From NCBI GenBank assembly GCA_030705925.1, contig JAUZPM010000015.1:1-40294 (forward strand): a stretch of DNA of 40,294 nt, in the 5' to 3' direction. Shown in pieces: positions 18,101-35,241 of the stretch. Under the pieces are notes generated by a model that made no database searches, was not told the DNA's origin, and worked only from the letters and a program-made list of their open reading frames with translations. This DNA is from Bacillota bacterium. Its GTDB lineage: Bacteria > Bacillota > Clostridia > Oscillospirales > Feifaniaceae. A program made the translations under genes and the position numbers. Position 1 is the stretch's first letter; every line of letters starts with the position of its first letter.

Positions 18101-18125
18101 GGTTTTTAAGCTGTTCTTTATCCAT
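15123..18125 (-). CDS. Glycoside hydrolase, GH106-like (alpha-L-rhamnosidase-related)
   Basis: This 1000-residue protein starts at an ATG behind GGAGGT. It has no signal peptide, so it acts in the cytoplasm on imported oligosaccharides. The N-terminal barrel has features of the GH106-type family: APFWSWNDHL (16-25), GWGGYFMHSRVGL (41-53), WLYDEDRWPSG (81-91) and GIFTDEP (186-192), with TDEP and the later MCEVYG carrying candidate catalytic acids. Beta-rich domains follow. The C-terminus, with TASVRLYINSQEVGLKYWTP and DITDYLHEGKNDI, is a carbohydrate-binding jelly roll of the beta-galactosidase type. The real sugar specificity is uncertain. It is the last gene of the glycan locus and has its own promoter. 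Confidence 0.82.
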   Translation of the reverse strand: MDKEQLKNPAAVYRQAPFWSWNDHLDADELKRQINDMVEKGWGGYFMHSRVGLVTGYMSKEWMDMTNACAEEASKTGTTAWLYDEDRWPSGTAGGEVSKHEEYRGRSLVFLKKNEITKDDSVLQNVVTVDGDRYICKRILPMGHPRFNGTNYVDLMNPKAVREFIDCTHERYKKNCGKYFGKEIPGIFTDEPCYLYCNNYKGTPVVPWSDYLPDFFKKLKGYDITNHIKELFLDCGDYHKTRFDFYDAATRLFVESFTKQYYDWCSENKMKMTGHFMKEDDLVGQTMWIGAAMPQYEFMHWPGIDKLHRHIEQVITVKQLTSVADQLDKEKAMCEVYGCIGQQSNFYDRKWISDWEAILGINFINPHLSLYSMRGERKRDYPANLFYQQPWWDDERKFADYLGRVNYVVSNGKRKTDILIIHPISSVWSEYTPLDGEAAMPLKKGIYNKNFDSLSRKLLSENLDFHYGDEILMEKYGRVENGKLVIGNCSYSTVVVPSVFTLRKNTYKLLCDFAAEAGAGKLIILKPFAESLDGEKAEIKWPDGTQKAEKVNDVVSILDTIYENRIKIINKATGQKTSKIFVHERLSDDGEWMMIANTDNKREFELNISLQSSKKPVILDLMSGEFYSIPITINEGRAEFDIKLYPAGSVMLFFPNSEMRVEKAPRVLDSGVEIAAGYEKVELIRNLDVSLLEPNVFPINDVTLYLNDELVAKDKPLNAIWHNYFYPAPDGTPFRAEYKFEVNNIPKGEIFAAIEVAENLDSITLNGIPIKPCKMPGELGKFDTKKSWKDINFTKVPFAADQLVNGTNIIAIEGRKVNNINIPNNHLPVSDFQNHKPTEVETIYIVGDFSVVNEDNINFSIDGAKFDIDSTDLTKTGCPFYAGKAAFSTAFDYKKQQGNIYLKLNDVHTASVRLYINSQEVGLKYWTPYVFDITDYLHEGKNDIRVVASTTLFNLMGPNRMSGILDSVSVGPSSFLMAAMFTEKYSFVSFGLDSVTIYKA

Positions 18126-18154: not shown

Positions 18155-18183
18155 ATTGTAACCTTGGGTAGTAAAAATGTAAA
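18155..18183 (-). promoter_or_regulatory. Promoter of the GH106-like gene
   Basis: On the minus strand, TTTACA (18178-18183), 17 bp and TACAAT (18155-18160). It follows a terminator, so the hydrolase is separately transcribed. Confidence 0.68.
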
Positions 18184-18330: not shown

Positions 18331-19149
18331 TTAGATTAATGCTTCAAGCAGCTTCTTTGCCTTAATAATATCTTCTATTTGTTTATCCCCGCTTATTTCT
18401 CTTTCTATCGTAAGAGGTCCGTCATAACCAATTTGTTTTAATTTGCTAATTAAAGCTGGAAAATTAACTCTTCCCTCACCAAGCGGTTTTTCCTGTCCAA
18501 GCGATCTGCCGTCAGTAGGATATTCTCCGTCCTTTGCATGGACGCCCATGACATACTCCCCGAATACATCAAGACTATCAACAGGATTTGCCTTTCCATA
18601 CAAAAGCAAGTTTGCAGGGTCTAGATTAATACCGACATTATCCATACCGATATCCTGTATAGCACGTTTAAGCGTTATTGGAGTTTCTTGGCCGGTCTCA
18701 AATAAAAAATTCTGACCGTTATCTTTACAGTGCTTAACTATTAGCTTAAGAGCGACAATTGTACCCGAATATTCTTCTGATAATGGGTTTTCAGGCATAA
18801 ATCCAACATGTGTTACAAGATTGTTTACGCCTATTAATTTTGCAAAATCGGAACCTTTTAAGAGCATTTGCGTGCGTGCATGACGATAAGCTGTTGGAAT
18901 CAGCCCAAGGGTAGCCTGACCTTCATAGAAATTCCATGTTACAGGCTTCTGCCACCCACACCAGAATGCTGTGATATCTATTCCGGTTTCATTTTTTGCG
19001 CTAATAACCTTCTGAGCAAATTCTTCGGTTAGAAGCTGTTCTTCCCATATTACTAACTGACATGTTTCAAAACCCATGTCTATCGCTTTTTTAAATTCAG
19101 ACGCAAGTTCAACAGTAGACCTTGCTCTAACTATTACGCCTAGTTTCAT
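18331..19149 (-). CDS. Sugar-phosphate isomerase/epimerase family TIM-barrel protein
   Basis: The start is taken at the ATG at 19149 (GGGGT ahead of it), giving 272 residues. An in-frame extension to 19188 runs into a hairpin. The fold is the xylose-isomerase-like/AP-endonuclease-2 barrel. The four metal-ligand segments are visible: FETGQE, GINLDPANLL, MGVHAKDGEY and PLTIEREI, which supply Glu, Asp, His and Glu. Such enzymes isomerise or epimerise ketoses and inositols. The substrate is not evident. It sits between the permease genes and the GH106-like hydrolase, so it probably processes a released monosaccharide. Confidence 0.88.
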   Translation of the reverse strand: MKLGVIVRARSTVELASEFKKAIDMGFETCQLVIWEEQLLTEEFAQKVISAKNETGIDITAFWCGWQKPVTWNFYEGQATLGLIPTAYRHARTQMLLKGSDFAKLIGVNNLVTHVGFMPENPLSEEYSGTIVALKLIVKHCKDNGQNFLFETGQETPITLKRAIQDIGMDNVGINLDPANLLLYGKANPVDSLDVFGEYVMGVHAKDGEYPTDGRSLGQEKPLGEGRVNFPALISKLKQIGYDGPLTIEREISGDKQIEDIIKAKKLLEALI

Positions 19150-19179
19150 ATTAAATACCCCATAATTATATTTTATAAC

Positions 19180-19223
19180 AAAAGCCATATGAACAAACCT
19201 TTTCAGGTCGACATATGGCTTTT
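19180..19223 (-). terminator. Hairpin terminator between the LplC-type permease and isomerase genes
   Basis: AAAAGCCATATG (19180-19191) pairs with CATATGGCTTTT (19212-19223), and inner ACCT pairs with AGGT. On the minus strand the stem ends in CTTTTGTTAT. It may attenuate rather than stop read-through, because no good promoter fits between it and the isomerase gene. Confidence 0.72.
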
Positions 19224-19236: not shown

Positions 19237-20142
19237 TTAACCTTTTATTGCGCCAACCATAACGCCTTTGACAAAGTATCTCTGAAGAAGAGGATACAGC
19301 ATAAGAACAGGAATAGATGACACGATAATCACTGCATATTTTATTGATTCTGCTAAAAGTTGCTGATCGACCATTGACGATTCGTTTGTCATATTTGACA
19401 TATCGTTTTGAATAAGTATTCCTCTTAAAACAAGCTGTAACGGATAAAGCTTTTCATTATTTAGGTAAATCATTGCGTTAAAATATTCATTCCAATGTCC
19501 GACACCGTAGTACATCACCATTACGGCGACTATTGGAACTGAAAGCGGCATTACAAGTTTTATAAGAATACCTATATTAGAACAGCCGTCAATTTTAGCT
19601 GCCTCCTGCAGTTCATAAGGTATAGAGCTCTGAAAGTAGTTTTTCATGATCAACATGTTCCAAACACTGATTAAGCCCGGAAGGATCAGTGACCAGTAAT
19701 TGTTTAATAATCCTAGTTTCTGTATAACCAAGTATGTTGGAACCATACCGCCACTGAAAAACATTGTAAATGAAATAAAAAATGTAATCTGCTGTCTTGC
19801 AGCAAGGTCTTTTCTTGACAAAGGATATGCGCACATGATGGTCATAATCAAGTTGCATATTGTACCCAACACTGTATAAAAAATAGTATTTTTATAACCA
19901 TTCATTATTGAGTCGTCTTTAAAAACCATTTTATATGCGCTAAGTGTTAGCCTTTTAGGAAAAAGCGTAACCTTCCCCTGCAGCACTAGCATTGGATCGC
20001 TTATAGAAGCACTGATAACATAAACCAGCGGATAGAGTACAATAAGCAAAACAATTGTAAGCAGAGTAACATTTATAATATCGAATGTTCTGTCGGCAGC
20101 AGTCTGTTTTATAGCCATACTATTCTTTTTAAAAAGTGCCAT
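19237..20142 (-). CDS. Carbohydrate ABC transporter permease, LplC/YtcP type
   Basis: The protein has 301 residues behind GGAGGAG. It is an integral inner-membrane subunit with about six helices, starting FDIINVTLLTIVLLIVLYPLVYVISASISDP. This is typical of the LplC (second) permease of complex-glycan importers. The EAA loop that docks the ATPase reads YELQEAAKIDGCSNIGILIKLVMPLS near residues 176-201. It pairs with the LplB-type permease encoded 13 bp upstream. No ATPase gene is nearby, which is normal for this class: a shared MsmK-like ATPase is inferred. Confidence 0.93.
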   Translation of the reverse strand: MALFKKNSMAIKQTAADRTFDIINVTLLTIVLLIVLYPLVYVISASISDPMLVLQGKVTLFPKRLTLSAYKMVFKDDSIMNGYKNTIFYTVLGTICNLIMTIMCAYPLSRKDLAARQQITFFISFTMFFSGGMVPTYLVIQKLGLLNNYWSLILPGLISVWNMLIMKNYFQSSIPYELQEAAKIDGCSNIGILIKLVMPLSVPIVAVMVMYYGVGHWNEYFNAMIYLNNEKLYPLQLVLRGILIQNDMSNMTNESSMVDQQLLAESIKYAVIIVSSIPVLMLYPLLQRYFVKGVMVGAIKG

Positions 20143-20155: not shown

Positions 20156-21163
20156 TTACCACAAACTCGTTTCGGAAACTTTTCTGCTGATATTGTTTAC
20201 TGCAATCAGCAAAGCAAAGTTGATAGCCGAATTGAATAAGCCAACGGCGGTTGAGAAACTATATTCAGCGCCTTTAAGTCCAACATCATAAACATATGTT
20301 GAAATAACCTGGGCGGCACTTAAGTTCAAACCGTTTTGCATTAAAAATACTTTTTCAAAACCAACATTCATGATTTTGCCGACATCAAGTATAAATAGTG
20401 TAATAGCAGTAGGCATGATGCCAGGAAGAGTAACATGAATCAGGCGCTGCATTTTAGTAGCACCGTCAACCATAGCAGCTTCATACTGCTGAATATCTAT
20501 TCCTGCGAGAGCAGCAATATAAATAATAGAGCCCCAACCTGTACTCTGCCATATACCAGACCATACATAAAGGTGCTTAAACCAACCGGGATCAGTAACA
20601 AATTTTATAGGCTGCATCCCAAGCTTAATAATTATCGTATTGACTATACCGCCAGTTTCCATTAATGCACTAGGTGCAGAAAACAGAACGGAAATCATGC
20701 CAACCAAAACTACAGTTGATAAAAAGTGTGGCGCATATGTAACCATCTGAACTGTCTTTTTAAACTTTACGCTTTTAAGTTCGTTAATAAGTAACGCCAG
20801 AATAATAGGAATTGGAAATCTTGCAACTAAACTGTAAATACTTATGGAAATCGTATTCCAAACAATATTTATAAATTGCGAGCTGTTAAAAAACCTTATA
20901 AAATGTTTAAGCCCATGCTGTGCTGTCCAAGGGCTGCCCCAAATTCCAGGTGCGCTTTTAAAATCTTTAAACGCTATCTGCACTCCAAACATTGGCCAAT
21001 ATGCAAAAATAATAAAATACGCAATTACTGGCACCAGCAGCAAATACAGATCCCAGTTATTTGCAAATGCTTTTCTTATTGCACGCCCTTGTGAGTATTT
21101 CGTGACAGACTTTTTGTTTATAGTTTGTACTTTAGTGATAGTTTGCGCTTTGGTGATAGCCAA
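20156..21163 (-). CDS. Carbohydrate ABC transporter permease, LplB/YtcP-partner type
   Basis: This 335-residue protein starts at a TTG behind GAGGGG. The first 20 residues contain an odd repetitive stretch, ITKAQTITKVQTINKK. After this comes a first helix WDLYLLLVPVIAYFIIFAYWPMFG, then QIAFKDFKSAPGIWGSPW, hallmarks of LplB-type permeases. The EAA loop reads YEAAMVDGATKMQRLIHVTLPGI near residues 229-251. It forms the translocation channel with the LplC-type permease 13 bp downstream, and is served by the binding lipoproteins encoded upstream. Confidence 0.93.
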   Translation of the reverse strand: MAITKAQTITKVQTINKKSVTKYSQGRAIRKAFANNWDLYLLLVPVIAYFIIFAYWPMFGVQIAFKDFKSAPGIWGSPWTAQHGLKHFIRFFNSSQFINIVWNTISISIYSLVARFPIPIILALLINELKSVKFKKTVQMVTYAPHFLSTVVLVGMISVLFSAPSALMETGGIVNTIIIKLGMQPIKFVTDPGWFKHLYVWSGIWQSTGWGSIIYIAALAGIDIQQYEAAMVDGATKMQRLIHVTLPGIMPTAITLFILDVGKIMNVGFEKVFLMQNGLNLSAAQVISTYVYDVGLKGAEYSFSTAVGLFNSAINFALLIAVNNISRKVSETSLW

Positions 21164-21511: not shown

Positions 21512-23179
21512 TTAAGCCTTTTTATATCTTTCGTATCCCCTGTTATAGATTTCCATATATTCGGAAAGTCCCATTTTATCATACTGTGCAACATAATCAT
21601 TCCATGTCTGATCATTGATCGGTCTTTTACCCGAAATAAACTCTGGAACTACATTGTTATAATAGCCTGTAAGCATATCCGCTTCCAAGGATGCCATGCG
21701 ATCCATTTCATCGGTTGTATAAATGAAATAATCCCAGACCTCCTTTGGCGCATATTTATACAAATCTTTGGCAGCCTTTGCAGGAACATCTGCCATCTCG
21801 TTACCTGTAAAATACTTCGAAAGCAGCAGAGTCGGATTGCCGCCTCCGGCAAAAGGAGTAATGGTAGATACAATGGCATCATAATTCTGTCCGGGATCAT
21901 TTGATTTCAAGACTTCTGGTTTAAATTTATACTTTCCGTCGGTATCCTTGAAATATGTTTTTCCCTCTACTCCGAGGTAGAACATTCTTGACCCTTCGTC
22001 ACTGTACCAGTAATCAAGCCAGCGTGCAGTAGCTTCAGGATAAGGATTCGTTTTTGAAAATGCAAACGCGCCTTTTGTTGCATTATTAGCCATTATTGCG
22101 TTCCATTGTTTATCCCCGTTTGGTCCCTTAAGAGCTTCTTCTATCCCGGTAAAATCATTCATTTTATCATTGCTTAAAAGAACCAGATTAATGTACATAA
22201 GACCGCCGACTAAATCCATAGAACTTTTTGCTATTATGTTAGTATTTAAAGTTGCTGAAGGTTGGAATATATCATTATCAAGCAGTTTTTCAGCATACAT
22301 CTTGTGAACATATTCAAGAAGCTGGCGGAATTCAGGTGCAGTTGGAATAAAGCGAAGCTTGTTCGTTTTCGGATCAAGATCAACATTAGCGTTTCTGTAT
22401 CCCTTGTTTTGCAAGCCATATGCACCATAAAGGCCACGAAGAATAGTGCCCCAAGAATTTGATGTCAGCGCAATTTCATCAGCCTTACCATTCCCATTGG
22501 CATCTTTGTCTCTCATAGCTTTGCATAATTCATAAAACTCATCAGTTGTGGTAGGAAGTTTTTTCACTCCGATTTTATCCATAAACTTTTTATTAATAAA
22601 CAGTTTTGGATGCATCTGAACTTCAGGTGCGTCTTGAATAGCCGGCAGAGCGTAAATATTCCCCTCCGCATCGGGCAGTGATTTTCTTACGCTATCCATA
22701 CTGGTAGTCAATTTCTTAAAATTAGGCATGTAACTATCAATCAAATCATTGATTTTTAAAAACAGGCCTTGCTCACCATATTTTTGTACATCCTTTGAGC
22801 CAAAACTGCAACGATAAAACCCATCAGGAAGATCCTGCCCTGACGCTAATACAAGATTGCGTTTTTCTTTGATTGAGGCATTAGGAACAACGTTCCAATC
22901 AATATGTATGTTAGTCTTTTTTTCATACTCCCCCCAAACGAGAATATTTGCATAATCCTTTTGGTATTCATGCTGCCCAACCATAAATTTTAATGTTATA
23001 GGCTGTTTAACAATTGGAAATTCGCCGTTTGGATTTAAATTTTCAAGCCTTTGCTTTGCGGCTGGATCAAGGTTAGCTTTTGCCCCTGCAGCAGTTATCT
23101 TTCTTTGACAACCGCCAAGTATAGGAACAATCATTAAAGCAGAAAGCATTAGCGCAGTAATTCTATGGTGAATTTTCAT
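21512..23179 (-). CDS. LplA-type extracellular solute-binding lipoprotein, copy 1 (nearest the permeases)
   Basis: The protein has 555 residues behind a GGGGG ribosome site. A signal peptide with lipobox LGGC ends at Cys24, anchoring the protein to the outer membrane face. The domain is a family 1 carbohydrate-binding type of the LplA/YtcQ subgroup. Residues about 222-235 read DKDANGNGKADE, an EF-hand-like calcium loop. It captures an oligosaccharide for the LplB/LplC channel, with which it is separated by a 348-bp gap. Compared with its paralogs it shows KQDAPEVQMHP-like divergence (AIQDAPEVQMHPKLF) in the ligand-side region, so its ligand may differ. Confidence 0.93.
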   Translation of the reverse strand: MKIHHRITALMLSALMIVPILGGCQRKITAAGAKANLDPAAKQRLENLNPNGEFPIVKQPITLKFMVGQHEYQKDYANILVWGEYEKKTNIHIDWNVVPNASIKEKRNLVLASGQDLPDGFYRCSFGSKDVQKYGEQGLFLKINDLIDSYMPNFKKLTTSMDSVRKSLPDAEGNIYALPAIQDAPEVQMHPKLFINKKFMDKIGVKKLPTTTDEFYELCKAMRDKDANGNGKADEIALTSNSWGTILRGLYGAYGLQNKGYRNANVDLDPKTNKLRFIPTAPEFRQLLEYVHKMYAEKLLDNDIFQPSATLNTNIIAKSSMDLVGGLMYINLVLLSNDKMNDFTGIEEALKGPNGDKQWNAIMANNATKGAFAFSKTNPYPEATARWLDYWYSDEGSRMFYLGVEGKTYFKDTDGKYKFKPEVLKSNDPGQNYDAIVSTITPFAGGGNPTLLLSKYFTGNEMADVPAKAAKDLYKYAPKEVWDYFIYTTDEMDRMASLEADMLTGYYNNVVPEFISGKRPINDQTWNDYVAQYDKMGLSEYMEIYNRGYERYKKA

Positions 23180-23194
23180 ATAATACCCCCTAAA

Positions 23195-23208: not shown

Positions 23209-23213
23209 CTTTT

Positions 23214-23249: not shown

Positions 23250-23255
23250 TTAAAA

Positions 23256-24905
23256 TTACTTCATGTTTTTATATCGATCGTATCCAGTGTTGTAAATTTC
23301 CATTAATCTCTTGAGGTTTAATTTATCGAACTGGGCAACATAATCGTTCCATGTTTGATCATTAAGAGGTGTATCGCCTGAAATGAATTTTGGAACAATA
23401 TTATCATAATATCCCTTGAACATATCTGCTTCAAGTGACGCCAGTTCTTCAGATTCCTCATCGGTATAATTGAAATATCCCCAGAGTTCCTTCGGCGCAT
23501 ATTTCTGCATATCCTGTGCAGCCTTTGCGGGGACAGGAAGCATCTCAGCGCCTTGGAAATATTTAGAAAGTGCAATTACAGGGCTGCCGCCACCGGCATA
23601 TGGGGAGAATTTAGCAACAGTTTGATCATAAGTAGACCCCGGCTTAATCTTTATTTTATCAGGTATAAACTGATATTTGCCGTCGCTGGTCTTTTCAAAT
23701 GACACGCCTTCCACACCCAAGTAGAAAAGTTTAGAGCCCTCTTCACCATACCAATAATCCATCCAGCGTGCAGTTGCCTCAGGATACTGATCATTTGGCG
23801 TCATGGCAAAAGCGCCTTTTCCGTTCATCTTGCTTCTGATTGCTGCCCACATTTTGTCGCCATTTGGTCCTTTGAGTGCCTCAGTAAGTCCTGTATAATC
23901 ATTCACATACTTACTGCCGGCAATAGTTGTATTGGTGTGTAGGAACGACCCAACAACCCCCATTTCGACTTTTGCCGTAACTTTCGCACTTGTGTTTGTG
24001 AATACTTCGTTATCGATAAGCTTTTCTTTATAAAGCTTATTCAAATATTCAAGCATCTGACGAAACTCGGGGGCCGTAGGAATGAAACGAAGTTTCCCAG
24101 TTTTAGGGTCAGCGTCAACATTCCCCTGCCAGTAACCTCGGTTCATAAGACCAAACGCACCTTTAAAACCGTTCAGAAGAGTAGACAATGAACTTAGTGA
24201 AAGCGGTATTTCATCCTGCTTACCGTTACCATTTGCGTCATTATCACGCATTGCTTTTAAAACATCATAAAGCTCATCTAAATTCGTCGGCAACTTTTTG
24301 CCTATTTTATCTAGATATTTTTGATTCATGTAAAGCTTAGTGCCTACTTCCATTTCAATGCTGTCACTAACTGATGGCAAAGCATAAATAGAGCCATCAA
24401 CAGACGGAAGACCTTTTTTTACATCATCCATCGAAGACATTACTTTTTTAAAGTTCGGCATATATTGATCTACAAGATCATTCCACTTTACAAATAATCC
24501 CTGAGTACCATATTTTTGAGGATCACGCTGGGCAAACCCACATCTGAAAAAGCCATCTGGAAGATTCTGACCTGACGCAAGCACAAGGTTCCGTTTTTCT
24601 GAGATATTATCCATCAGAACCTCATCCCAGTCAATATGGATATTTGTCATTTTTTCATATGTAGGCCAAGTAAGAATATTAGCATAGCTGTCTTGCGTAT
24701 AATGTCTGCCGACCATAAATTTTAGCGTGATAGGTTGTTTAACAATCGGAAATCCTTGCAAGTTGAGGTTTTCAAGTCGTGCGGCAACAACCGGATCATT
24801 AGTCTTTTTAGCGGCAGAGGTTGGTTTGGCAGCGCAACCTGACAGCATGGAAGCAGCAAAAACAGAGGCAGTGATAACTGACAATATCCTTGTTCTAATA
24901 TTCAT
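23256..24905 (-). CDS. LplA-type extracellular solute-binding lipoprotein, copy 2
   Basis: The 549-residue product starts at an ATG behind AAGGGG. The signal peptide has lipobox LSGC (Cys24). PIVKQPITLKFMVGRH and MTNIHIDWDEV mark the shared N-terminal lobe, and DNDANGNGKQDE is the calcium-type loop near residue 225. The gene begins 9 bp after copy 3 ends and is followed by a stem-loop before copy 1, so copies 3 and 2 are surely one transcript. Its differences from copy 3 are spread along the protein, as expected for an old duplication rather than a recent one. Confidence 0.93.
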   Translation of the reverse strand: MNIRTRILSVITASVFAASMLSGCAAKPTSAAKKTNDPVVAARLENLNLQGFPIVKQPITLKFMVGRHYTQDSYANILTWPTYEKMTNIHIDWDEVLMDNISEKRNLVLASGQNLPDGFFRCGFAQRDPQKYGTQGLFVKWNDLVDQYMPNFKKVMSSMDDVKKGLPSVDGSIYALPSVSDSIEMEVGTKLYMNQKYLDKIGKKLPTNLDELYDVLKAMRDNDANGNGKQDEIPLSLSSLSTLLNGFKGAFGLMNRGYWQGNVDADPKTGKLRFIPTAPEFRQMLEYLNKLYKEKLIDNEVFTNTSAKVTAKVEMGVVGSFLHTNTTIAGSKYVNDYTGLTEALKGPNGDKMWAAIRSKMNGKGAFAMTPNDQYPEATARWMDYWYGEEGSKLFYLGVEGVSFEKTSDGKYQFIPDKIKIKPGSTYDQTVAKFSPYAGGGSPVIALSKYFQGAEMLPVPAKAAQDMQKYAPKELWGYFNYTDEESEELASLEADMFKGYYDNIVPKFISGDTPLNDQTWNDYVAQFDKLNLKRLMEIYNTGYDRYKNMK

Positions 24906-24914
24906 TTTTTCCCC

Positions 24915-26561
24915 TTATTTTATAGATTTATAGCGATCGTATCCGCTTTTATAAATCTTCATGTACTCTGCTAATCCCATTTTATCAAACTTAGCAACGT
25001 AATCTGCCCAAGTCTGATCGTTAAGAGGTGTCTGACCAGAGATAAAGTTAGGAATAGCTGTGTCATAAAAACCTGAAAACATGTCAGCTTCAATAGATGA
25101 CATACGATTCGTTTCTTCATCGGTATAGTTAAAGAATCCCCATACTTCCTTTGGAGTGAACTTTGAAAGATCCTGTGCACATTTCTGAGGAATTGGCAGA
25201 AGTTCTGCACCCTTGAAATACTTAGATAAAGCAAGAGCCGGGTTGCCGCCACCTGCATATGGTGTAAACTTGGCAACTGTCTGATCATAAGTTGAGCCTT
25301 CAGGAACTTTAACCTTCTCCGGAATAAATTCATACTTGCCGTCCGAAGTTACATAATACGACTCGCCTTCAACTCCCATGTAGTATAGGCGTGCGCCCTC
25401 ATCGCTGAACCAATAGTCCATCCAACGGGCAGTTGCTTCTGGATATTGATTTGTTTTCGTTATAGAAAAACTGCCTTTTGTGGACATATGTCCTCTAATT
25501 CCCGTCCAAAGTTTATCGCCGTTTGGTCCCTGCAATGCTTCAGTAATTCCAGTGAAGTCATCAACGTGCTTATTGCCTGCAAGAGTAGTGTTTGTATGAA
25601 CTATACCGCCAACGAGATCTGCTTCAACTTTTGCAGTTACATTTGAACTTTTAATTGTAAATATCTCATTATCAATTAATTTTTCAGAATATAACTTATG
25701 CATATATTCAACAAGCTGACGGAATTCAGGTGCCGTTGGAATAAATCTTAAGTTATTTGTTTTAGGATCAATATCAATGTTTTGGTGTGTTGAACCCCTG
25801 TTCATAAGTCCATATGCACCCATTAAGGCGTTACGTAATGTTTTCCATGAGTTAGATGTTAACGGAACTTCATCAGCCTTACCGTCTTTATTTGCATCCT
25901 TATCGAGCATTAACTTAAGGGTATTATATAAATCATCCAAAGATTTCGGCATAGTAGCGCCGACATTATCCATGAATTTTTTATTTAAATAAATTTTTGG
26001 ATTAAGCTCGATTTCAGGACAATCAGTAAGACCGGGCAATGAGTAAATTGATCCGTCTACAGAAGGCAAGCCTCTGCGGATATCGTCGTATTTATCAAGA
26101 ACCTGTTTGAAATTCGGCATATAATCCAGATAATCGTTGATCTTTAAAAATGTGCCGTCTGCACCATACTTCTGAACGTCTGGGGTGCTGAAACTGCAGC
26201 GGAAAAATGCATCAGGCAGATTCTGACCGGAAGCAAGAACAAGGTTGCGTTTTTCAGCAAGATTGTCTGAAAGCACTGCATCCCAATCAATGTGAATATT
26301 AGTCTTCTTTTCGTATGTAGGCCAAGTTAAAATTGATGCCCAGTCACTCTGTGCACTGTTTCTGCCAACCATAAATTTTAGCGTTATCGGCTGTTTTACA
26401 ATGGGGAAACCCTCTTTGTTCATGTTTGCAAGTCTTGCCTCAGCAGCAGGGTCTTTAGCCTTTTTACCTGCAACGCTTTGTGAAGGACCGCATCCGCTAA
26501 GCATCGTAGCTGCCAAAACACATGCGGTTGCTAGTGATAGAACTCGCAATTGTGTTCTCAT
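24915..26561 (-). CDS. LplA-type extracellular solute-binding lipoprotein, copy 3
   Basis: The protein has 548 residues behind AAGGAGAG. The lipobox is LSGC (Cys24). It has the family core PITLKFMVGRN and KKTNIHIDWDAV, the calcium-type loop DKDANKDGKADE, then FIPTAPEFRQLVEYMHKLYSEKLIDNEIF and ATARWMDYWFSDEGARLYYMGVEGE read in parts. This is the first gene of a transcript with its own promoter at 26610-26638, overlapped by a palindrome, and probably continuing into copies 2 and 1. It is most similar by eye to copy 2. Confidence 0.93.
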   Translation of the reverse strand: MRTQLRVLSLATACVLAATMLSGCGPSQSVAGKKAKDPAAEARLANMNKEGFPIVKQPITLKFMVGRNSAQSDWASILTWPTYEKKTNIHIDWDAVLSDNLAEKRNLVLASGQNLPDAFFRCSFSTPDVQKYGADGTFLKINDYLDYMPNFKQVLDKYDDIRRGLPSVDGSIYSLPGLTDCPEIELNPKIYLNKKFMDNVGATMPKSLDDLYNTLKLMLDKDANKDGKADEVPLTSNSWKTLRNALMGAYGLMNRGSTHQNIDIDPKTNNLRFIPTAPEFRQLVEYMHKLYSEKLIDNEIFTIKSSNVTAKVEADLVGGIVHTNTTLAGNKHVDDFTGITEALQGPNGDKLWTGIRGHMSTKGSFSITKTNQYPEATARWMDYWFSDEGARLYYMGVEGESYYVTSDGKYEFIPEKVKVPEGSTYDQTVAKFTPYAGGGNPALALSKYFKGAELLPIPQKCAQDLSKFTPKEVWGFFNYTDEETNRMSSIEADMFSGFYDTAIPNFISGQTPLNDQTWADYVAKFDKMGLAEYMKIYKSGYDRYKSIK

Positions 26562-26609
26562 TTTGCTCTCTCTCTCCTTATTATAAAAATTTGGGATTTT
26601 TACTTATAT

Positions 26610-26638: not shown

Positions 26639-26724
26639 CAAATAATGAATCTATAATTATTTTTTAACAATATACACAAAAATAGTTTATGTTACTTATA
26701 TAAAATATACAAAAATTATATACA

Positions 26725-26748
26725 AAGGCTGCCATTACTGGCAGCCTT
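26725..26748 (-). terminator. Terminator after binding-protein copy 4
   Basis: AAGGCTGCCA (26725-26734) pairs with TGGCAGCCTT (26739-26748) around a four-base loop. A short T stretch follows on the minus strand. This separates the copy 4 and copy 3 transcripts. Confidence 0.8.
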
Positions 26749-26832
26749 AATTTTAAAGTAAACTTTCAATCCCAAATAATGCCATATATAATCTCTATCT
26801 CAAAATATAGCCCACTAAAATGCGATTTCTAC

Positions 26833-28482
26833 TTATTTTGCCTTTTTATAACGATCGTAACCGGCTTTATAAATATCCATGTATTTCTGAAGTCCGATCT
26901 CATTAAATTTAGCTACATATTGATTCCAAGTCTCATCATTGATTGGAGTCTGCCCGGTTATAAATGCAGGCACTGCAATATCATAGTGTCCTTTAAACAG
27001 ATCTGCCTCAAGACTTGATAGCTGATCTGATTCTTCTTCTGTATAGCTAAACCAGCCCCATATGTCTTTTGGAAGATATGAAATCATATTATGGGCCGCC
27101 TGTGCGGATGCCTGAGCCATCTCACTCCCGCGGAAATAATCAGATTTTAAAAGTGCAGGATTTGCGCCGCCGGCATATGGAACATATTTTGCAATAACCT
27201 GATTAAGGTTTGAACCTTTTGGAATTTGAATAGCTTCGGGAATAAAATCATATTTGCCGTCAGAATTCTTCTGGTATGAAACACCTTCAACGCCAAGGAA
27301 GAACATTCTGGAACCTTCATCGCCATACCAATAATCCATCCAGCGCATGGTTGCTTCAGGATTTTTATTTGTATTTGTCATAGTAAAAGCGCCAAGATTC
27401 GAAATATGCGAGCGGCATGCCGCCCATGTTTTATCTCCATTAGGCCCTTGTAAAGCTTCCGGAATGCCTTCATATTTCTTTACTCGTTCCGAATCAAGAA
27501 CGGAAGTCGACGTGTAAATCATTCCTCCGAGTGCGTTAACCGCATCCTTAGAAATAATTTTTGAAGAAGTCATAGTTACAACTTCAGAGTCTAAAAGATG
27601 TTCGTTGTATAGCTTGTGGAGATATTCAAGCATCTGACGAAATTCCGGCGCAGTAGGAATAAATCTCAAATTGCCTGATTTAGGATCAACGTCAACATTC
27701 ACATGAACGCTGCCTCTGTTCATTAAACCAAAAGCCCCTTTGAATGCATGTGTAAGATTTGTCAGTGAGCTGGCTGTTATCGGGATTTCATCTTTCTTAC
27801 CGTTCTTATTTGCGTCTTCATCGTAGAACTTTTTCAGTAATGTATAAAGCTCATCTGTTGTTTTAGGCATTGTCCCATTAACGTTTTTGATGAAATCGGT
27901 ATTCAAAAATATTTTAGGGTTGATCTCCTGCTCTATACAATCTGAAACGCATGGCAGCGCATAAATCGTGCCATCAACGGTTGGAAGACCTTTTTTTACA
28001 TCTTCATACTGGCTAGCCACTTTTTTAAAATTTGGCATATATTTGTCAATGTAATCATTAAGTTTTACAAATACGCCTTGAGCGCCATATTTTGCAGTAT
28101 CACGGCCATTAAAACTACAGCGGAAAAACGCATCGGGAAGATTCTGCCCGGATGCCAGTACAAGATTACGCTTCTCTCCAATTGACGTAGCTGGCACCTC
28201 GTCCCAGTCGATATGAATATTCGTCTTTTTTTCATACTCTGACCATATCAGAATGTCTTTATAGCTGCTCTGAGACGGATCCCGGCTAACCATAAACTTA
28301 AGGGTTATTGGCTGTTTTACTATTGGAAATTCGCCGCTGGTATTTAGATTTTCAAGCCGTGCTTTTGTTTCGGCGTCAACTGCTTTGCCAGCCGCCCGTT
28401 TAGGTGAACATGCTCCCAAAAACGATGCAAGCATTAACACAGCTAATGACAGAGAAACAAACCTTATGTTTCTGCGCATCAA
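26833..28482 (-). CDS. LplA-type extracellular solute-binding lipoprotein, copy 4
   Basis: The product has 549 residues from the TTG at 28482. The ATG one codon later is an equally acceptable start, and GAGGGG lies 8-11 bases upstream. The lipobox is LGAC (Cys25). It has PITLKFMVSRD, KKTNIHIDWDEV, the calcium-type loop DEDANKNGKKDE and ATMRWMDYWYGDEGSRMFFLGVEG read in parts. It is transcribed from an extended -10 promoter and followed by its own terminator, so its expression can be set separately from the other copies. Confidence 0.93.
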   Translation of the reverse strand: MMRRNIRFVSLSLAVLMLASFLGACSPKRAAGKAVDAETKARLENLNTSGEFPIVKQPITLKFMVSRDPSQSSYKDILIWSEYEKKTNIHIDWDEVPATSIGEKRNLVLASGQNLPDAFFRCSFNGRDTAKYGAQGVFVKLNDYIDKYMPNFKKVASQYEDVKKGLPTVDGTIYALPCVSDCIEQEINPKIFLNTDFIKNVNGTMPKTTDELYTLLKKFYDEDANKNGKKDEIPITASSLTNLTHAFKGAFGLMNRGSVHVNVDVDPKSGNLRFIPTAPEFRQMLEYLHKLYNEHLLDSEVVTMTSSKIISKDAVNALGGMIYTSTSVLDSERVKKYEGIPEALQGPNGDKTWAACRSHISNLGAFTMTNTNKNPEATMRWMDYWYGDEGSRMFFLGVEGVSYQKNSDGKYDFIPEAIQIPKGSNLNQVIAKYVPYAGGANPALLKSDYFRGSEMAQASAQAAHNMISYLPKDIWGWFSYTEEESDQLSSLEADLFKGHYDIAVPAFITGQTPINDETWNQYVAKFNEIGLQKYMDIYKAGYDRYKKAK

Positions 28483-28512
28483 TCATACATCCCCTCTAAA
28501 TTAATTAATTTC

Positions 28513-28521
28513 ATTATATCA
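28513..28521 (-). promoter_or_regulatory. Extended -10 promoter of binding-protein copy 4
   Basis: On the minus strand TGATATAAT is a full TGn-TATAAT element. There is no good -35 hexamer 17 bp further up, which suggests an activator-dependent promoter. Confidence 0.55.
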
Positions 28522-28634
28522 TTGATTTACGTGGATGTATTGTGAAAAATTGCACTTTTTCAATATCATTTTGCGAATTTTTTAAGCATAATTTCGTGTT
28601 AACTTGCAGTAAAACTTTAACAATGGTTAGAAGT

Positions 28635-28670
28635 GCAAAAGACTGCCGTAATATTACGGCAGTCTTTTGC
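28635..28670 (-). terminator. Terminator after binding-protein copy 5 (36-bp perfect palindrome)
   Basis: The 36 bases are perfectly self-complementary. Arms of 18 bp start GCAAAAGACTGCCG and end CGGCAGTCTTTTGC, closing on a central AATATT. A short T stretch in the arm gives the terminator tail on both strands. This is an unusually perfect stem for a region with no converging gene. Confidence 0.82.
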
Positions 28671-28748
28671 GGGGAAGGGGAATCCCCATGAGCAATAGGT
28701 TCTTAACCTTCTACACATTACTCTAACTCTCTATCTCAATTTGTACTT

Positions 28749-30383
28749 TTATGCTTTTTCGTATCTTTCACGTGCAGTTTGGTAAATCTTCATATACTCG
28801 TCTAGTCCCATCTGATAAAACGCATCAACGAATTTCTGCCACTCAGCATCGTCATTAACATTAACTTCCCCGCTGATAAATTTAGGAATCATAACATCAT
28901 AATGTCCCTTGAACATATCTGCCTCAAGCGAGTCAATTCTTTCATTTTCTTCAGGGGTATAACTAAAGTATCCCCACAAATCTTTAGGAACATACGGCAT
29001 CATATAGTCGGCCGCTTCTTTTTGCCCCGGAAGCATCTCCGATCCATAGAAATATTCGCCTTTCATGAGAGCTGGATTGCCGCCGCCCATATAAGGAACA
29101 TACTTCGCAACAACCTGGTCAAATGTTTTCCCATTACCTACTTGCGACAGTATATCAGGCAAAAATTCATATTTTCCATCAGCTGTCTTATGATATGATT
29201 TCCCTTCAATACCCATAAAATACATGCGTCCGCCTTCTTCTGAATAGAAGTAATCCAACCAGCGCATAGTAGCTTCGGGATATTTATTTGTACTTGTTAT
29301 TGTAACAGCGCATTGTGTGCTGATATGACTTCTGATTGCAGTGTACATTAGGTCTTTATATGGGCCTTTAAGAGGCTTAGGAATTCCGGCAAAATCGCCA
29401 CCGTAATTGCCAAGCTGTGTTGTGATGATATCCGCAGTTGAGCCAAGAACATTCAGAGATGCTTTCGCAGTGATTTTTGCGCTAGTCATTGTGAATATTT
29501 CCTCATCCATAAGACCTTCTTTATAGAGCTTGTTAAGGAAAGAAAGCATCTCTCTGAACTCATTTGTTATAGGTAGAAAGCGTAATTTTCCAGTAGCAGG
29601 ATCAACATCGACTTTTGAATGAGTAAGACCCTTGTTCATCATTCCATATGAACCCTTAAGCACGTTGAATATCTGCGTAGTATTTGTTGCAGTAAAAGGT
29701 ATTTCGTCCTGCTTACCATTACCATTTGGATCCTGTGTTTTAAATGCTTTCAGCACATCGTATAATTCGTCAAGTGTTGTAGGCATTTTCTTTCCCACTT
29801 TTTCAAGCCACTTTGTATTGATAAAAAGCTTTTGGTTCATTTCGTTCTCATAGCAATCTGTTACAGCCGGCAATGCGTATATAGTTCCATCAGGAGCCGG
29901 AAGGCTTTTACGCACCGCATCATAATCATTCAGAACCTTTTTTAAATTAGGCGCATACTTGTCAATAAGATTATTGAGCGGGATAAACAAGCCCTCTTTT
30001 CCATATTTCATGGGGTCATTTCTTCCAAACCCTGCACGATAGAAAGCGTCAGGCAGGTTCTGGCCGGATGCGAGCACCAAGTTACGCTTCTCAGCAATAT
30101 TATTCGATAAAACTGCATCCCAATCAATATGTATATTGGTTTTCTTTTCGTATTCGCTCCAGATCATTGTATTGGCATAATCTTCTTGTGACGCGGTTTT
30201 TGAAACCATAAATTTTAGAGTTATCGGCTCTTTTACTATTGGAAAACCGGTAGCGTTGAAATTCGGTATGTTTTTCTCAGCCGCTGTCTGTTTACTCGGT
30301 TTTGCGGCGGCGCATGAGCTTAGCAATGATGAAGTTATAACTAGCGAAAGAATTATCGCTAATATCCTTGATACTTTCTTCAC
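28749..30383 (-). CDS. LplA-type extracellular solute-binding lipoprotein, copy 5 (first in the array)
   Basis: The protein has 544 residues and starts at a GTG behind AAAGGAG. The lipobox is LSSC (Cys24). It keeps PITLKFMVSKT and KKTNIHIDWDAV, but reads EPITLKF rather than QPITLKF. The calcium-type loop is TQDPNGNGKQDE, lacking the first aspartate of the other copies. It has ATMRWLDYFYSEEGGRMYFMGIEGKSYH read in parts. It is the most divergent member of the array and is transcribed first, after the regulator. It ends in the perfect palindromic terminator. Confidence 0.93.
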   Translation of the reverse strand: MKKVSRILAIILSLVITSSLLSSCAAAKPSKQTAAEKNIPNFNATGFPIVKEPITLKFMVSKTASQEDYANTMIWSEYEKKTNIHIDWDAVLSNNIAEKRNLVLASGQNLPDAFYRAGFGRNDPMKYGKEGLFIPLNNLIDKYAPNLKKVLNDYDAVRKSLPAPDGTIYALPAVTDCYENEMNQKLFINTKWLEKVGKKMPTTLDELYDVLKAFKTQDPNGNGKQDEIPFTATNTTQIFNVLKGSYGMMNKGLTHSKVDVDPATGKLRFLPITNEFREMLSFLNKLYKEGLMDEEIFTMTSAKITAKASLNVLGSTADIITTQLGNYGGDFAGIPKPLKGPYKDLMYTAIRSHISTQCAVTITSTNKYPEATMRWLDYFYSEEGGRMYFMGIEGKSYHKTADGKYEFLPDILSQVGNGKTFDQVVAKYVPYMGGGNPALMKGEYFYGSEMLPGQKEAADYMMPYVPKDLWGYFSYTPEENERIDSLEADMFKGHYDVMIPKFISGEVNVNDDAEWQKFVDAFYQMGLDEYMKIYQTARERYEKA

Positions 30384-30551
30384 TGTAATTTCTCCTTTAA
30401 AAGATTTGCTTAGGGTTTATCTCTGCCTTTTCATCATAGTGTAATATATTTTTAATTTCTATATTCAATTTGTGTAAACCATTAGCTTTTTTTTACATAA
30501 TAGTAAACTGATATAACGAACGCTTAAATAATATTTATTTGTTCGTCTATG

Positions 30552-30589
30552 AAAAATCTCGGTCACCTTTTCAGCGACCGAGATTTTTT
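30552..30589 (-). terminator. Terminator of the nagA/AraC-regulator transcript
   Basis: AAAAATCTCGGTC (30552-30564) and GACCGAGATTTTT (30576-30588) form a 13-bp stem with an 11-base loop. It overlaps the regulator stop codon and continues into T residues on both strands. Confidence 0.88.
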
Positions 30590-32912
30590 AATTTTTGTTC
30601 AAACTTTCTCTAGCAATATTTCTGTACTGAATCGGCGTTATCCCCTCAGACTTTTTAAACTTTCTGATAAAGTTCGATTCATCAAAATAACCTACTTGCA
30701 AAAGTATATCTCTTATAGAAAGATCCGTTTCCTTTAGCAGAGTTTTAACTTTTTCTATTCTAAGCGTATTTATATATTGAATTAAGGTCGTACCAGTCTG
30801 GTCTTTAAAATATCTGCTCAAATAGGAAGGCGATACACTGCATTTTGATGCAATATACTCAAGGGTTAGGTTTGGATTAGTTAATTCGTTATTGATTACG
30901 CTAAGCGCCATCTCTCGAAGCTTTACATTTTTACTTTCTTTGGATACTTCTATATCCTTGCATATTTCCAAGCAAAAATCTGTGATTCTTTCTACGAGTG
31001 AATTTACTGTTTCAAATTCATCCATTATAAGGCTTCCGGTTCCGGCATACAGCGTATTATTCGCGCTTAGGTTCATATCCTCAACAGCTTTAAGCAGTGA
31101 ATTGATAATACCTATACATACAATACGTGCTGACTTAGGGCTTGCAATGTTATTTAAAATATAATTTTGAATGTTAGACGTTACGCTGCGCACCTTATCG
31201 CTATCCCCTGTTTTAATCGCGAGAATCAAGTCAGATTCAAGTTCTGCCGGATAACTATACATTTGATTATCATGATTTTTTATATCCTCAAAACTGATAA
31301 TTGAGTCGTTCCCCTTAAGGAGCCTGTAGTTTACACTTCTTTCAGCTTGCGAGAAGGAGACACCCGCATTCATGATACTGTTTACTATACCGCCGATGCC
31401 AACAGTTATCGTAATTTCAAAATTAGATTTAAAAAATTCCTTTAAAGCGAATGCCAAGCGTTCAATCTGAGATCTTATCTCATGTTTTGTATCAAAATTA
31501 AACAGCATCGCCATACTTCTTCCGTTTTCAAGCTCAACAGTATGACAAATACCAATCGAAGCCGCCATTTCTTCAGACACATTGCGTATAGCATACTTTA
31601 TAAGGTCAAAATTCTCCCTGTCCTTGTCTGTTTCATCTTTATACTGGTCAAAGTATATTATCGCAGTACAGCAGCTGTTATATGGCAGTTTTACGCCTAC
31701 ATTCTGAGCAACATCCGCTATTTTTTGTTCATTTTTTAATTTGCCGCGCAAAAGTTTTAAAATAAATATATTTTGTAAAACAGATTGGTCATTGTTTAAT
31801 TTGTCAACCAGATCCTTATTTTCTGCGGAAACATTCCTAAACAGATTTGAGATTACTTCAAATTCATCCTTGTCAGCGTCCTTTTCATTCTCACTGTTAT
31901 ATTCCTTAAATGTATTGGCAAGTTCTTTTAAAGGTTTATAAGCACTCAAAGCAAGCATAAGCGATATAGCAGCGCCAACAAGGAAAATTATAAATATACT
32001 AATATAAAAAACATTGCGCTGTGCCCAGAACTGGCTCATATAAATTTGTGTAGGGCTTGCTGCAACATATGTATAATTGTTATACGGTGAAACATGTTTT
32101 ACGACTGAATATTCAATGCCTTTATATTTTATCTTATCAATTGACTTATCAGATGACAAGTTTATGTTTTTTAAAAGGTGCGATGAAATATCGTCTGGCT
32201 GGTTGTCCGAAATGCTAACCAACAGTTTTTTATTCTCGTCAAAAACAAAAGCAAACCCCTTGTTTTTTTCACAAATGTTAGCAAACATTTCCTTGTAAAC
32301 CGACTCATCAACTAGGAACATGATGACGGCATTCGGCTTAGTTGAATATATGGGAATTGGATATATATGCGTCATATATTTTTTGTCTGAAATATTCAAA
32401 ATTCTTACATTCTCAAGTGGTCTCGTTGTAGGACTTTGAAGCTTTCCGACATCATTTTTGAATTGTTCTTCGTTCCAATTAGAATATGCGTTCAATCTGT
32501 TAAAAAAAAGCGAAAGATCTGAGTCGTAAGAAGAAGTGTAAATCTTCTCATCAGGATCCCCTAAAAAGTAAAGAGCAATTTCATCAAAATATGCATTATT
32601 CGTGTTATATTTCCTAAGTTCCTGAACTCCAAGATATACATCGTATCCCGAATTATGCAGTTGTCTTTTTGACAGTATAGGGTTCTCCGATATTTCCAGG
32701 GCAACCCTATAAAGCTCGACAAATCTGTTGTCGAGAACGCGCTGAATCTGGACAAGGCTGTCTATATAATTTGCCTCAATATCTTTACGAACAGCCGTAA
32801 GAAGACTGCCGTAAACTATTGAGCCGAAAAAGGCAAGAACAAGAGTTAAAATCAAGACATATGAAAACAGGTATTTATAAAACCGAGACGATGCATGTTT
32901 TAAATAGCTCAT
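30588..32912 (-). CDS. Membrane-bound AraC-family regulator with extracellular sensor domain (YtdP/YesS type)
   Basis: The protein has 774 residues. A membrane helix at about 13-38 (YLFSYVLILTLVLAFFGSIVYG) leads to an extracytoplasmic sensor of about 260 residues. A second helix follows at about 302-327 (FYISIFIIFLVGAAISLMLALSAY), then a cytoplasmic linker. A C-terminal AraC DNA-binding domain (about 665-768) contains SPSYLSRYFKDQTGTTLIQYINTLR and VGYFDESNFIRKFKKSEGITPIQYR read in parts. Its start overlaps the nagA stop (ATGA). Related Bacillus proteins YtdP and YesS (RhgR) lie beside LplABC-type importers. It probably activates the array on sensing an external sugar. Confidence 0.93.
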   Translation of the reverse strand: MSYLKHASSRFYKYLFSYVLILTLVLAFFGSIVYGSLLTAVRKDIEANYIDSLVQIQRVLDNRFVELYRVALEISENPILSKRQLHNSGYDVYLGVQELRKYNTNNAYFDEIALYFLGDPDEKIYTSSYDSDLSLFFNRLNAYSNWNEEQFKNDVGKLQSPTTRPLENVRILNISDKKYMTHIYPIPIYSTKPNAVIMFLVDESVYKEMFANICEKNKGFAFVFDENKKLLVSISDNQPDDISSHLLKNINLSSDKSIDKIKYKGIEYSVVKHVSPYNNYTYVAASPTQIYMSQFWAQRNVFYISIFIIFLVGAAISLMLALSAYKPLKELANTFKEYNSENEKDADKDEFEVISNLFRNVSAENKDLVDKLNNDQSVLQNIFILKLLRGKLKNEQKIADVAQNVGVKLPYNSCCTAIIYFDQYKDETDKDRENFDLIKYAIRNVSEEMAASIGICHTVELENGRSMAMLFNFDTKHEIRSQIERLAFALKEFFKSNFEITITVGIGGIVNSIMNAGVSFSQAERSVNYRLLKGNDSIISFEDIKNHDNQMYSYPAELESDLILAIKTGDSDKVRSVTSNIQNYILNNIASPKSARIVCIGIINSLLKAVEDMNLSANNTLYAGTGSLIMDEFETVNSLVERITDFCLEICKDIEVSKESKNVKLREMALSVINNELTNPNLTLEYIASKCSVSPSYLSRYFKDQTGTTLIQYINTLRIEKVKTLLKETDLSIRDILLQVGYFDESNFIRKFKKSEGITPIQYRNIARESLNKN

Positions 32913-34078
32913 GTATCATCTCCTATGGCTGAATAAACGCAATTGCCGCCAACATAAGTCGCAATCACGTTGTATGATTCATCAAGCAGCACAAAATCAG
33001 CATCCATATCAACTGATAGTGTACCTGTTCTATGATCGATTCCCAGCAGACGAGCAGGATTAGCGGTTATAAAATTCAACGCTTCTTCAAGCGGCATGCC
33101 TGAAAAACGAATAATATTTCGCAGTGCCCTGTCCATAGTAAGAGCACTTCCTGCAAGATTACCGCCATTCTTTAAAACAATTGCTTCTTCATTCACCACA
33201 ACCGGAAGACCTGCAAAATCATATTCGCCCGGCTCACAGCCTGCGGGGTTTACACTGTCAGTAATAAGCAGTATTTTTTCTTTGTTTTTGACATTGCAAA
33301 CAAAGTTTAAGACATCTTGATGAACATGATGTCCGTCACATATAAGCTCAACGTATACATCAGAAAAAAGGCCCGCACCAACCGCTCCAGGATCCCTATG
33401 CGACATGGGCGACATAGCATTGAAAAGATGTGTCATGTTGCGGGCGCCGGCTTCAATCGCTCTGCATGCATCGTCATAGCCCGTGTCAGTATGCCCGATC
33501 GATACTATTGTCTTATCGGATATCTCCTTTATTAAATCCACAGCACCTTCAAGTTCAGGTGCAATGGTTATAATTTTAATATTTTCAAAATCGGATAGCA
33601 GATTTTGAATTTCGTCTTTATTTATTGATCTAATAAACTCAGGGTTTTGCGCCCCTGCTTTGTGTGTACTTATGTACGGGCCCTCAGCATTTACTCCGAC
33701 TATCCTTGCCCCTCCTGTTTCAGCCTCAGCTAAATCTCGAATGGCACCGAAAACTTCCTTTAATTCTTCTAAAGACGCAGTAAGCGTAGTGGGTAAAAAA
33801 GATGTTACCCCATTCCGGGCAAACATTTTGCAAAGCTGTATTAATTTATTCGGATCCTTAGCTGCATCCATTACGCTGATTCCGCCAAACCCGTGAGTAT
33901 GTACATCGATAAATCCGGGTACTACAGCAGCGCCATTTAAATCAATTACTTTATCCGCTCTCGGAGCCTTGTCTTTAGATCCTATCCAAGCAAATTTTCC
34001 CTCTTCAACAATAAAGCTGCCATTATTCAAAATTTTGTCATGGCAGTAAACATTCCCATTAAAATATAAAACTCTCAT
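32909..34078 (-). CDS. nagA: N-acetylglucosamine-6-phosphate deacetylase
   Basis: I choose the ATG at 34078 because GGGAG lies five bases before it. The in-frame ATG at 34090 has no ribosome site. The 389-residue amidohydrolase removes acetate from GlcNAc-6-phosphate to give glucosamine-6-phosphate. The metal-binding HTHGFGG (His60, His62), the substrate-binding EGPYIS, IGHTDTGYD, MTHLFNAMSPMSHRDPG and the catalytic ITDSVNPAG are all intact. It is translationally coupled to the membrane AraC regulator downstream. nagB is not adjacent, so glucosamine-6-phosphate is handled elsewhere. Its presence implies that an N-acetylhexosamine-containing glycan is a substrate of the locus. Confidence 0.94.
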   Translation of the reverse strand: MRVLYFNGNVYCHDKILNNGSFIVEEGKFAWIGSKDKAPRADKVIDLNGAAVVPGFIDVHTHGFGGISVMDAAKDPNKLIQLCKMFARNGVTSFLPTTLTASLEELKEVFGAIRDLAEAETGGARIVGVNAEGPYISTHKAGAQNPEFIRSINKDEIQNLLSDFENIKIITIAPELEGAVDLIKEISDKTIVSIGHTDTGYDDACRAIEAGARNMTHLFNAMSPMSHRDPGAVGAGLFSDVYVELICDGHHVHQDVLNFVCNVKNKEKILLITDSVNPAGCEPGEYDFAGLPVVVNEEAIVLKNGGNLAGSALTMDRALRNIIRFSGMPLEEALNFITANPARLLGIDHRTGTLSVDMDADFVLLDESYNVIATYVGGNCVYSAIGDDT

Positions 34079-34117
34079 CTGCACTCCCATAAAGTCTAAT
34101 TTTTATTCTTCAAAATA

Positions 34118-34146
34118 ATTATAGTAATTTTGTATCGTTTTTTCAA
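34118..34146 (-). promoter_or_regulatory. Promoter of nagA and the AraC regulator
   Basis: On the minus strand TTGAAA (34141-34146), 17 bp and TATAAT (34118-34123), about 40 bp ahead of the nagA start codon. Confidence 0.78.
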
Positions 34147-34187
34147 CCTTTATTACTCAAGTTATATCAATTATCCATAACCGTAAA

Positions 34188-34231
34188 AAAGAGCTGACAT
34201 CCATTTCTAAAAAAAATGAATTCAGCTCTTT
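34188..34231 (-). terminator. Terminator of the cupin-ferredoxin operon
   Basis: AAAGAGCTGA (34188-34197) pairs with TCAGCTCTTT (34222-34231), with extra pairing inside between CATTT and AAATG. On the minus strand it ends in six T residues. Confidence 0.82.
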
Positions 34232-34244
34232 AACGACAAAACGC

Positions 34245-34931: not shown

Positions 34932-35219
34932 ATGAATATGGAGCTGCTCGAACAAAGGGCTGAAATGCTTAAGGTTTTATCGCATCCGCAAAGACTGTGT
35001 ATAGTAAGAGGGCTTCAAAAGCACCGTTGTAACGTAGGTAAAATACAAGAAAAACTGGGGCTTAGTCAAAGCGGGCTTTCTCAGCATCTTGCAAAGCTTA
35101 AATCTGTCGGAATAATAAAAGGCGTAAGGCAGGGCAAGGAAATCTGCTATGAAGTTGTTAGTCCAGAGGCTATTGCAATCGCCGAAATGCTTATGTCAGA
35201 CATAGACGATTGTGAATAA
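34932..35219 (+). CDS. ArsR-family winged-helix regulator
   Basis: The 95-residue protein starts at the ATG at 34932, after AAGAAGGAG. The fold is ArsR-type: LKVLSHPQRLCIVRGLQ, then the recognition helix LSQSGLSQHLAKLKSVGII and a wing with VRQGKEICYEV. Cysteines are at 23, 33, 72 and 94. The classical ArsR CxC metal site is absent. Because the next gene handles persulfides and CoA disulfides, a thiol-based, possibly persulfide-sensing role like SqrR/BigR is inferred, though the cysteine positions do not obviously match those proteins. It is probably autoregulated through the palindromes at its own promoter. Confidence 0.9.
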   Translation: MNMELLEQRAEMLKVLSHPQRLCIVRGLQKHRCNVGKIQEKLGLSQSGLSQHLAKLKSVGIIKGVRQGKEICYEVVSPEAIAIAEMLMSDIDDCE

Positions 35220-35241
35220 ATAATATGAGAGGGGCAGAACA

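Follow-up and report, generated by a model that had tools for sequence, protein, structure and literature searches.

A nagA gene overlapping a membrane AraC-type regulator gene beside a sugar ABC importer locus in a Feifaniaceae genome

Introduction

In the nagBACD operon of Escherichia coli, nagA, the gene for N-acetylglucosamine-6-phosphate (GlcNAc-6-phosphate) deacetylase, directly precedes the regulator gene nagC. NagC is a soluble repressor of the ROK type. A regulator gene is also placed downstream of nagA and co-transcribed with it in the nagAB-nagR (yvoA) genes of Bacillus (PMC3648570). The Gram-positive polysaccharide utilization locus (gpPUL) of Blautia producta is of another kind, bringing together genes for an AraC-type regulator, a solute-binding protein (SBP), a permease and a glycoside hydrolase (PMC10318527). 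Here we describe a locus from a member of the family Feifaniaceae (contig JAUZPM010000015.1), in which nagA overlaps a gene for a membrane AraC-type regulator and is followed by the genes of a sugar ABC importer. The window, the whole stretch of DNA that was analysed, is this entire contig of 40,294 nt. The genome comprises 2.25 Mb in 115 contigs and is 95% complete, so absences from it are provisional. The locus is probably best explained as a two-gene operon that joins a general NagA to the membrane sensor of the adjoining importer.

Results and Discussion

The nagA-araC transcription unit

The order of transcription on the minus strand is nagA, araC, five SBP genes, two permease genes, an AP_endonuc_2-type gene and a gene for a GH106-like hydrolase (Table 1). 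An earlier note on this DNA, made from the sequence alone, had described an ATGA overlap between nagA and araC under one promoter. Both reading frames are present and the junction, GGAGATGATACATGAGC, was confirmed, with the nagA stop codon TGA sitting within ATGA. The sigma-70-like site upstream of nagA was the top of 84 matches in 17.4 kb, shuffled sequences giving 62 ± 8.5 matches. The unit is flanked by two terminator-like hairpins, neither of which was listed by a simple terminator scan; the hairpin stretches reported here were picked by eye, and as a T-run is missing from some of them, other kinds of RNA structure may be among them. Rfam at gathering scores returned two tRNAs only in the window and no known RNA family upstream of nagA-araC. 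On the basis of the promoter-like site, the 4-nt overlap and the flanking hairpins, nagA-araC looks like one transcript, a likely two-gene unit ending before the first SBP gene. In this respect the anatomy supports the earlier note, and co-transcription is likely.

Overlaps of 4 nt are commonplace (3 of 26 same-strand neighbour pairs in the window gene list) and araC has a Shine-Dalgarno-like AGGAG of its own, 7 nt upstream, so translational coupling from nagA to araC is rated as possible. The true start of nagA is probably the fifth codon at 34078, where GGGAG precedes the ATG, rather than 34090.

Identity and metabolic role of NagA

The product of the first gene passed the TIGR00221 equivalog model (330.3 bits, cut-off 225.65), and its nearest solved relative was 2vhl (E 1.1e-62). 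Positions H64 and H66 (HTH at 64-66), E136, H200, H221 and D278, which we take to be metal-binding or catalytic residues, align with like motifs of 2vhl. The protein is a clear NagA with predicted deacetylase activity. No other full nagA was found in the genome, where the second match is a 43-residue stretch within a 404-aa open reading frame (ORF).

Routes leading to NagA are encoded elsewhere in the genome. Contig C30 carries a NagZ-type glycoside hydrolase of family GH3 (209.7 vs 207 bits), MurQ (365.8 vs 302 bits) and also a kinase of the BadF type that weakly resembles NagK (96.7 vs 370 bits), and NanE was found on contig C10 (301.3 vs 189 bits). The MurQ and NanE routes both yield GlcNAc-6-phosphate, which is deacetylated by NagA, so both should supply its substrate. 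NagA therefore need not be dedicated to the importer locus and is best seen as a general enzyme for amino-sugar and cell-wall recycling; as the sole NagA serves other routes, its presence tells little about the cargo of the adjacent importer. The C30 genes form a cell-wall recycling cluster (L176 4500-10288) composed of NamZ, the NagZ-type GH3, MurQ, the BadF-type kinase and a beta-lactamase-family protein.

Searches with TIGR00502 and PF01182 gave no canonical NagB in the genome; the PF01182 search matched 34 of 59 genomes, this genome not being one of the 34. Contig C5 (L119 6190-7245) encodes a 351-aa double-SIS protein resembling NagB-II, which scored 256.3 bits against NF046059, below the cut-off of 430, and 232 and 228 bits against GlmS models, likewise under their cut-offs. 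It matched the solved deaminase 8eol at E 1.5e-49, and its top solved match was 7kqa, deposited under a different name. This protein may stand in for NagB.

The membrane AraC-type regulator and its relatives

The second gene encodes an AraC DNA-binding domain (HTH_18, residues 688-765, 79.9 bits) together with, by hydropathy, two hydrophobic transmembrane (TM) helices (15-33 and 304-322) around an outer region, which is the architecture of a membrane AraC-type sensor regulator. No dCache match was returned by a Pfam scan of the protein. The search for relatives scored at most 17 candidates per genome, in its own genome 17 of 21, and at E <=1e-30 identified two there, on contigs C10 (28% identity) and C94 (25%). 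On C10 the genes follow the order of the window locus, with AraC relative, SBP (38-41%), two permeases (52% each) and AP_endonuc_2, and then NanE, without nagA, and a hairpin lies between AraC and SBP (z -5.4). The AP_endonuc_2 protein of C10 shares its Pfam family with that of the window but has no BLAST similarity to it. Directly after NanE, the same contig (L127 975-9584) encodes a 2869-aa protein with lamin-tail domains and S-layer anchors. A further locus on contig C1 has an AraC protein divergent from the SBP and permeases, resembling the window regulator over 130 residues only, and also contains AP_endonuc_2 and GH42-like genes. On C94 (L122 290-6750) the AraC relative, with a dCache_1 score of 19.8 bits under a cut-off of 45, lies upstream of a phosphodiester-glycosidase (NAGPA domain) protein with S-layer anchors. 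An AraC gene is thus paired with an importer at two more places in the genome (C10 and C1), both lacking nagA, which marks nagA as the addition in the window locus.

The importer and GH106-like hydrolase genes

Hairpins separate several of the importer genes (z -10.9 between SBP 5 and 4, -3.5 between SBP 4 and 3, -7.7 between SBP 2 and 1, and -7.3 between SBP 1 and the permease). An AlphaFold model of SBP 2 built from the five window SBPs had a mean pLDDT of 40.1 and was not used. The five SBP genes (window 21512-30383) are consecutive paralogues, 53-63% identical to SBP 2, accompanied by one permease pair, and more copies are found on contig C53 (57%) and at the edge of contig C84 (56%, partial). 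One permease pair may serve many, perhaps interchangeable, receptors, an arrangement that deserves study.

Table 1. Features of the nagA-araC locus and downstream genes in the window
Feature	Position	Strand	Remarks
Terminator-like hairpin, ferredoxin gene/nagA gap	34180..34236	-	-22.9 kcal/mol, z -6.7
Sigma-70-like promoter of nagA-araC	34118..34146	-	TTGAAA-17-TATAAT; 11/12 consensus matches
nagA, GlcNAc-6-phosphate deacetylase	32909..34090	-	TIGR00221; likely start 34078
ATGA overlap, nagA stop/araC start	32909..32912	-	AGGAG 7 nt upstream
Membrane AraC-type regulator, 774 aa	30588..32912	-	TM, outer region, TM, weak GGDEF_2-like region, HTH_18
Terminator-like hairpin after araC	30545..30597	-	-23.3 kcal/mol, z -8.4
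SBP 5	28749..30383	-	
SBP 4	26833..28482	-	
SBP 3	24915..26561	-	
SBP 2	23256..24905	-	Solved relatives include AlgQ1/AlgQ2
SBP 1	21512..23179	-	
Sugar ABC permease	20156..21163	-	BPD_transp_1
Sugar ABC permease	19237..20142	-	BPD_transp_1
AP_endonuc_2 TIM-barrel, sugar isomerase/epimerase type	18331..19188	-	PF01261, 95.8 bits
GH106-like hydrolase	15123..18125	-	Promoter-like site of its own, hairpin upstream; by eye, no evident signal peptide

Upstream of the GH106-like gene are a separate promoter-like site (18183..18155, 10/12 matches) and a hairpin (z -4.3), and the gene forms a distinct unit 12.5 kb from nagA-araC with more hairpins between. The rhamnosidase resemblance pointed out in the earlier note holds as a distant similarity, without reaching curated cut-offs: the protein scored 23.8 vs 29 bits against PF17132 and 86.2 vs 1300 bits against the BT4145 rhamnosidase model NF049897. 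In a weak pairwise alignment with a solved GH106 enzyme, E461 of that enzyme lies opposite a lysine. E461 is presumably catalytic, as is also suggested by the Q variant in 5mwk. Residues T189-D190-E191-P192, H275, E279 and E335 are invariant among 13 aligned GH106-like sequences (the split G284 gene being left out), which would fit an active glycosidase but gives no pointer to its sugar.

Relatives at E <=1e-60 were present in 63 of 295 genomes of the order, this one included, with at most two candidates scored per genome. Within the genome, a paralogue of 30% identity on contig C64 (11.9 kb) adjoins a soluble AraC-type gene, and this contig has no nagA, SBP or permease relative. Twelve further neighbourhoods from 11 genomes were compared, those of G017 and G045 being chosen for nagA already known on the contig and the other 10 by score. 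They include GH38, ROK and SIS genes (L165), a BadF-type ATPase/kinase (L168) and a GH29 fucosidase (L164). In G045 (L161), nagB and nagA lie about 4 kb from the GH106-like gene; in G017 (L160), nagA lies about 9 kb from it and is directly adjoined by a GH78 rhamnosidase gene. These were the 2 with both genes on one contig among the 13 other genomes covered by both searches that had a GH106-like match. There is no common theme in these neighbourhoods, and rhamnose and amino sugar are both compatible with them. In G045 (L161 5663-7578) nagB and nagA share four nucleotides (6454/6457), a further ATGA-type junction of the ordinary sort at a nagA gene.

Interpretation of the locus

In the explanation that we favour, the first gene would provide the one complete GlcNAc-6-phosphate deacetylase identified in this genome, serving general amino-sugar and cell-wall recycling, and the second a membrane sensor for the adjoining sugar ABC importer. 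The outer region of the sensor would most likely perceive an extracellular sugar, directly or via a binding protein, and its AraC DNA-binding domain would switch on the downstream SBP, permease and hydrolase units. The position of araC behind nagA would tie the amount of sensor to nagA expression, in the way that other bacteria link nagC and nagR to nagA. If this coupling is functional, the locus would be a nagA operon with a membrane sensor reading the cell exterior in place of the usual soluble repressor. Several observations weigh against this explanation. Given its own ribosome-binding site, araC could be translated without nagA. No common motif was found in seven upstream stretches (those of nagA, SBP 5, 4 and 3, the first permease, the GH106-like gene and the C53 SBP) by a simple, weak test, with scores of 65.0 against a mean of 65.3 for 20 shuffles at width 16 and 73.6 against 74.4 in shuffles at width 20, so AraC control of the importer and hydrolase genes lacks direct support. 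The sole AraC match at E <=1e-30 in 58 other genomes (G003, 23% identity) lies in an 18-kb stretch without an SBP or permease relative and is followed by a TatC-like gene (by eye), a gene for which no solved relative was found and an IgA-protease/S-layer-like gene.

The distribution of nagA neighbours also counts against the favoured explanation. Among 106 other nagA loci (29 from one search, L003-L031, with flanks <=1.5 kb, and 77 from a second) no recognisable AraC gene adjoined nagA in a tblastn search at 1e-6 with one AraC query, which diverged regulators can escape; the sole match, L054, was 3.4 kb from nagA. For this reason the two genes may have come together by chance, through a genome rearrangement that carries no meaning for regulation. 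What lies next to nagA differs greatly between loci: from 100 downstream ORFs picked by a mechanical rule, 68 were scanned and 32 omitted (18 mutually repetitive Rhizobiales and 14 others, comprising short ORFs, some reversed or cut loci and near-repeats), and the commonest families were ROK (5), phosphofructokinase (4) and NagB-type (4). The 25 of 69 families displayed for these ORFs did not include HTH_18, leaving room for one unseen member, or at most 1 of the 68. A narrow literature search found no title on a nagA-AraC pair. The exact 4-nt overlap, the common promoter-like site and the flanking hairpins nevertheless argue for a present-day unit, and we consider an accident unlikely. A slightly stronger contender, though one we still regard as doubtful, is that the importer carries amino-sugar oligosaccharides, for example host glycans or cell-wall pieces containing GlcNAc or N-acetylmuramic acid (MurNAc), and that nagA acts here on that substrate; it overlaps the favoured explanation, and the likelihoods assigned do not sum to one. 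No glucose-family phosphotransferase system EIIB was found in the genome (PF00367; other families of the system were not searched), so the uptake of GlcNAc or MurNAc may take a different route. The C10 and C94 AraC relatives lie near the NanE and phosphodiester-glycosidase genes, and GH20 and the NagZ-type GH3 are encoded elsewhere. However, the units of the locus contain no hexosaminidase or amino-sugar kinase, the solved SBP relatives (AlgQ1/AlgQ2 and others) do not settle which ligand is bound, the C1 locus of like layout has GH42-like enzymes, and the pattern was noticed post hoc.

A more specific proposal, which we rate as rather improbable, is that a subfamily of membrane AraC regulators in this organism detects amino-sugar glycans outside the cell, for instance fragments of cell wall, with the coupling to the sole nagA confining the sensor and five-SBP importer to active amino-sugar metabolism. 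The earlier note had instead read the locus as dedicated to a glycan containing both N-acetylhexosamine and rhamnose-like sugars. The GH106-like gene does share its strand and a 19-kb run of genes with nagA-araC, and the G045 and G017 contigs, the latter with its GH78 gene beside nagA, would suit such a substrate. Against this, the hydrolase falls under curated cut-offs and is encoded by another, distant unit, the C64 paralogue has no nagA or importer relative on its contig, and relatives of the hydrolase in other genomes are found near GH38, GH29, BadF and ROK kinase genes as well as many unrelated ones; with the sole NagA being general, a dedicated mixed-glycan locus is not supported and is very unlikely. 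The case advises caution in inferring substrate from gene adjacency, as the cargo of an importer may not follow from a sole, general NagA encoded next to it.

Other genes of the window

Two further gene groups were observed in the window. A CitMHS-type transporter, a ROK kinase (4-nt overlap) and a DUF4127 gene are found in a row at 7708-11202; nothing was found in the literature on DUF4127 together with ROK. At 34932-37704, an ArsR-type regulator gene is followed by a gene for an 820-aa fusion of pyridine-nucleotide disulphide oxidoreductase, rhodanese, TusA and DsrE-like domains.

Comparison with known systems

The locus resembles E. coli nagBACD in having nagA immediately before a regulator gene, whereas no importer locus of this type follows the E. 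coli genes. It is also like Bacillus nagAB-nagR, where the regulator gene is downstream of nagA in one operon (PMC3648570). In Bacillus, however, the regulator is a soluble repressor of the GntR family whose gene is separated from nagA by nagB, in contrast to the membrane AraC-type regulator and the absence of a canonical nagB match here. The hydrolase is related to the GH106 alpha-L-rhamnosidases BT0986 and BT4145 by distant sequence similarity and a jelly-roll-like C-terminal region, but differs from them in its scores under curated cut-offs and in the unmatched E461 of the weak pairwise alignment. Of the three elements that define a gpPUL, the regulator and the carbohydrate transporter are present, and the place of the polysaccharide-degrading enzyme would be taken by the putative GH106-like hydrolase. 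As in such loci, AraC-type regulator, SBP, permease and hydrolase genes occur together; unlike them, the window locus has five tandem SBP genes, a regulator gene that overlaps nagA and a putative hydrolase. The layout is best read as a modest variant of the known nagA operons with a regulator gene of their own, here linked to an import locus of the gpPUL kind.

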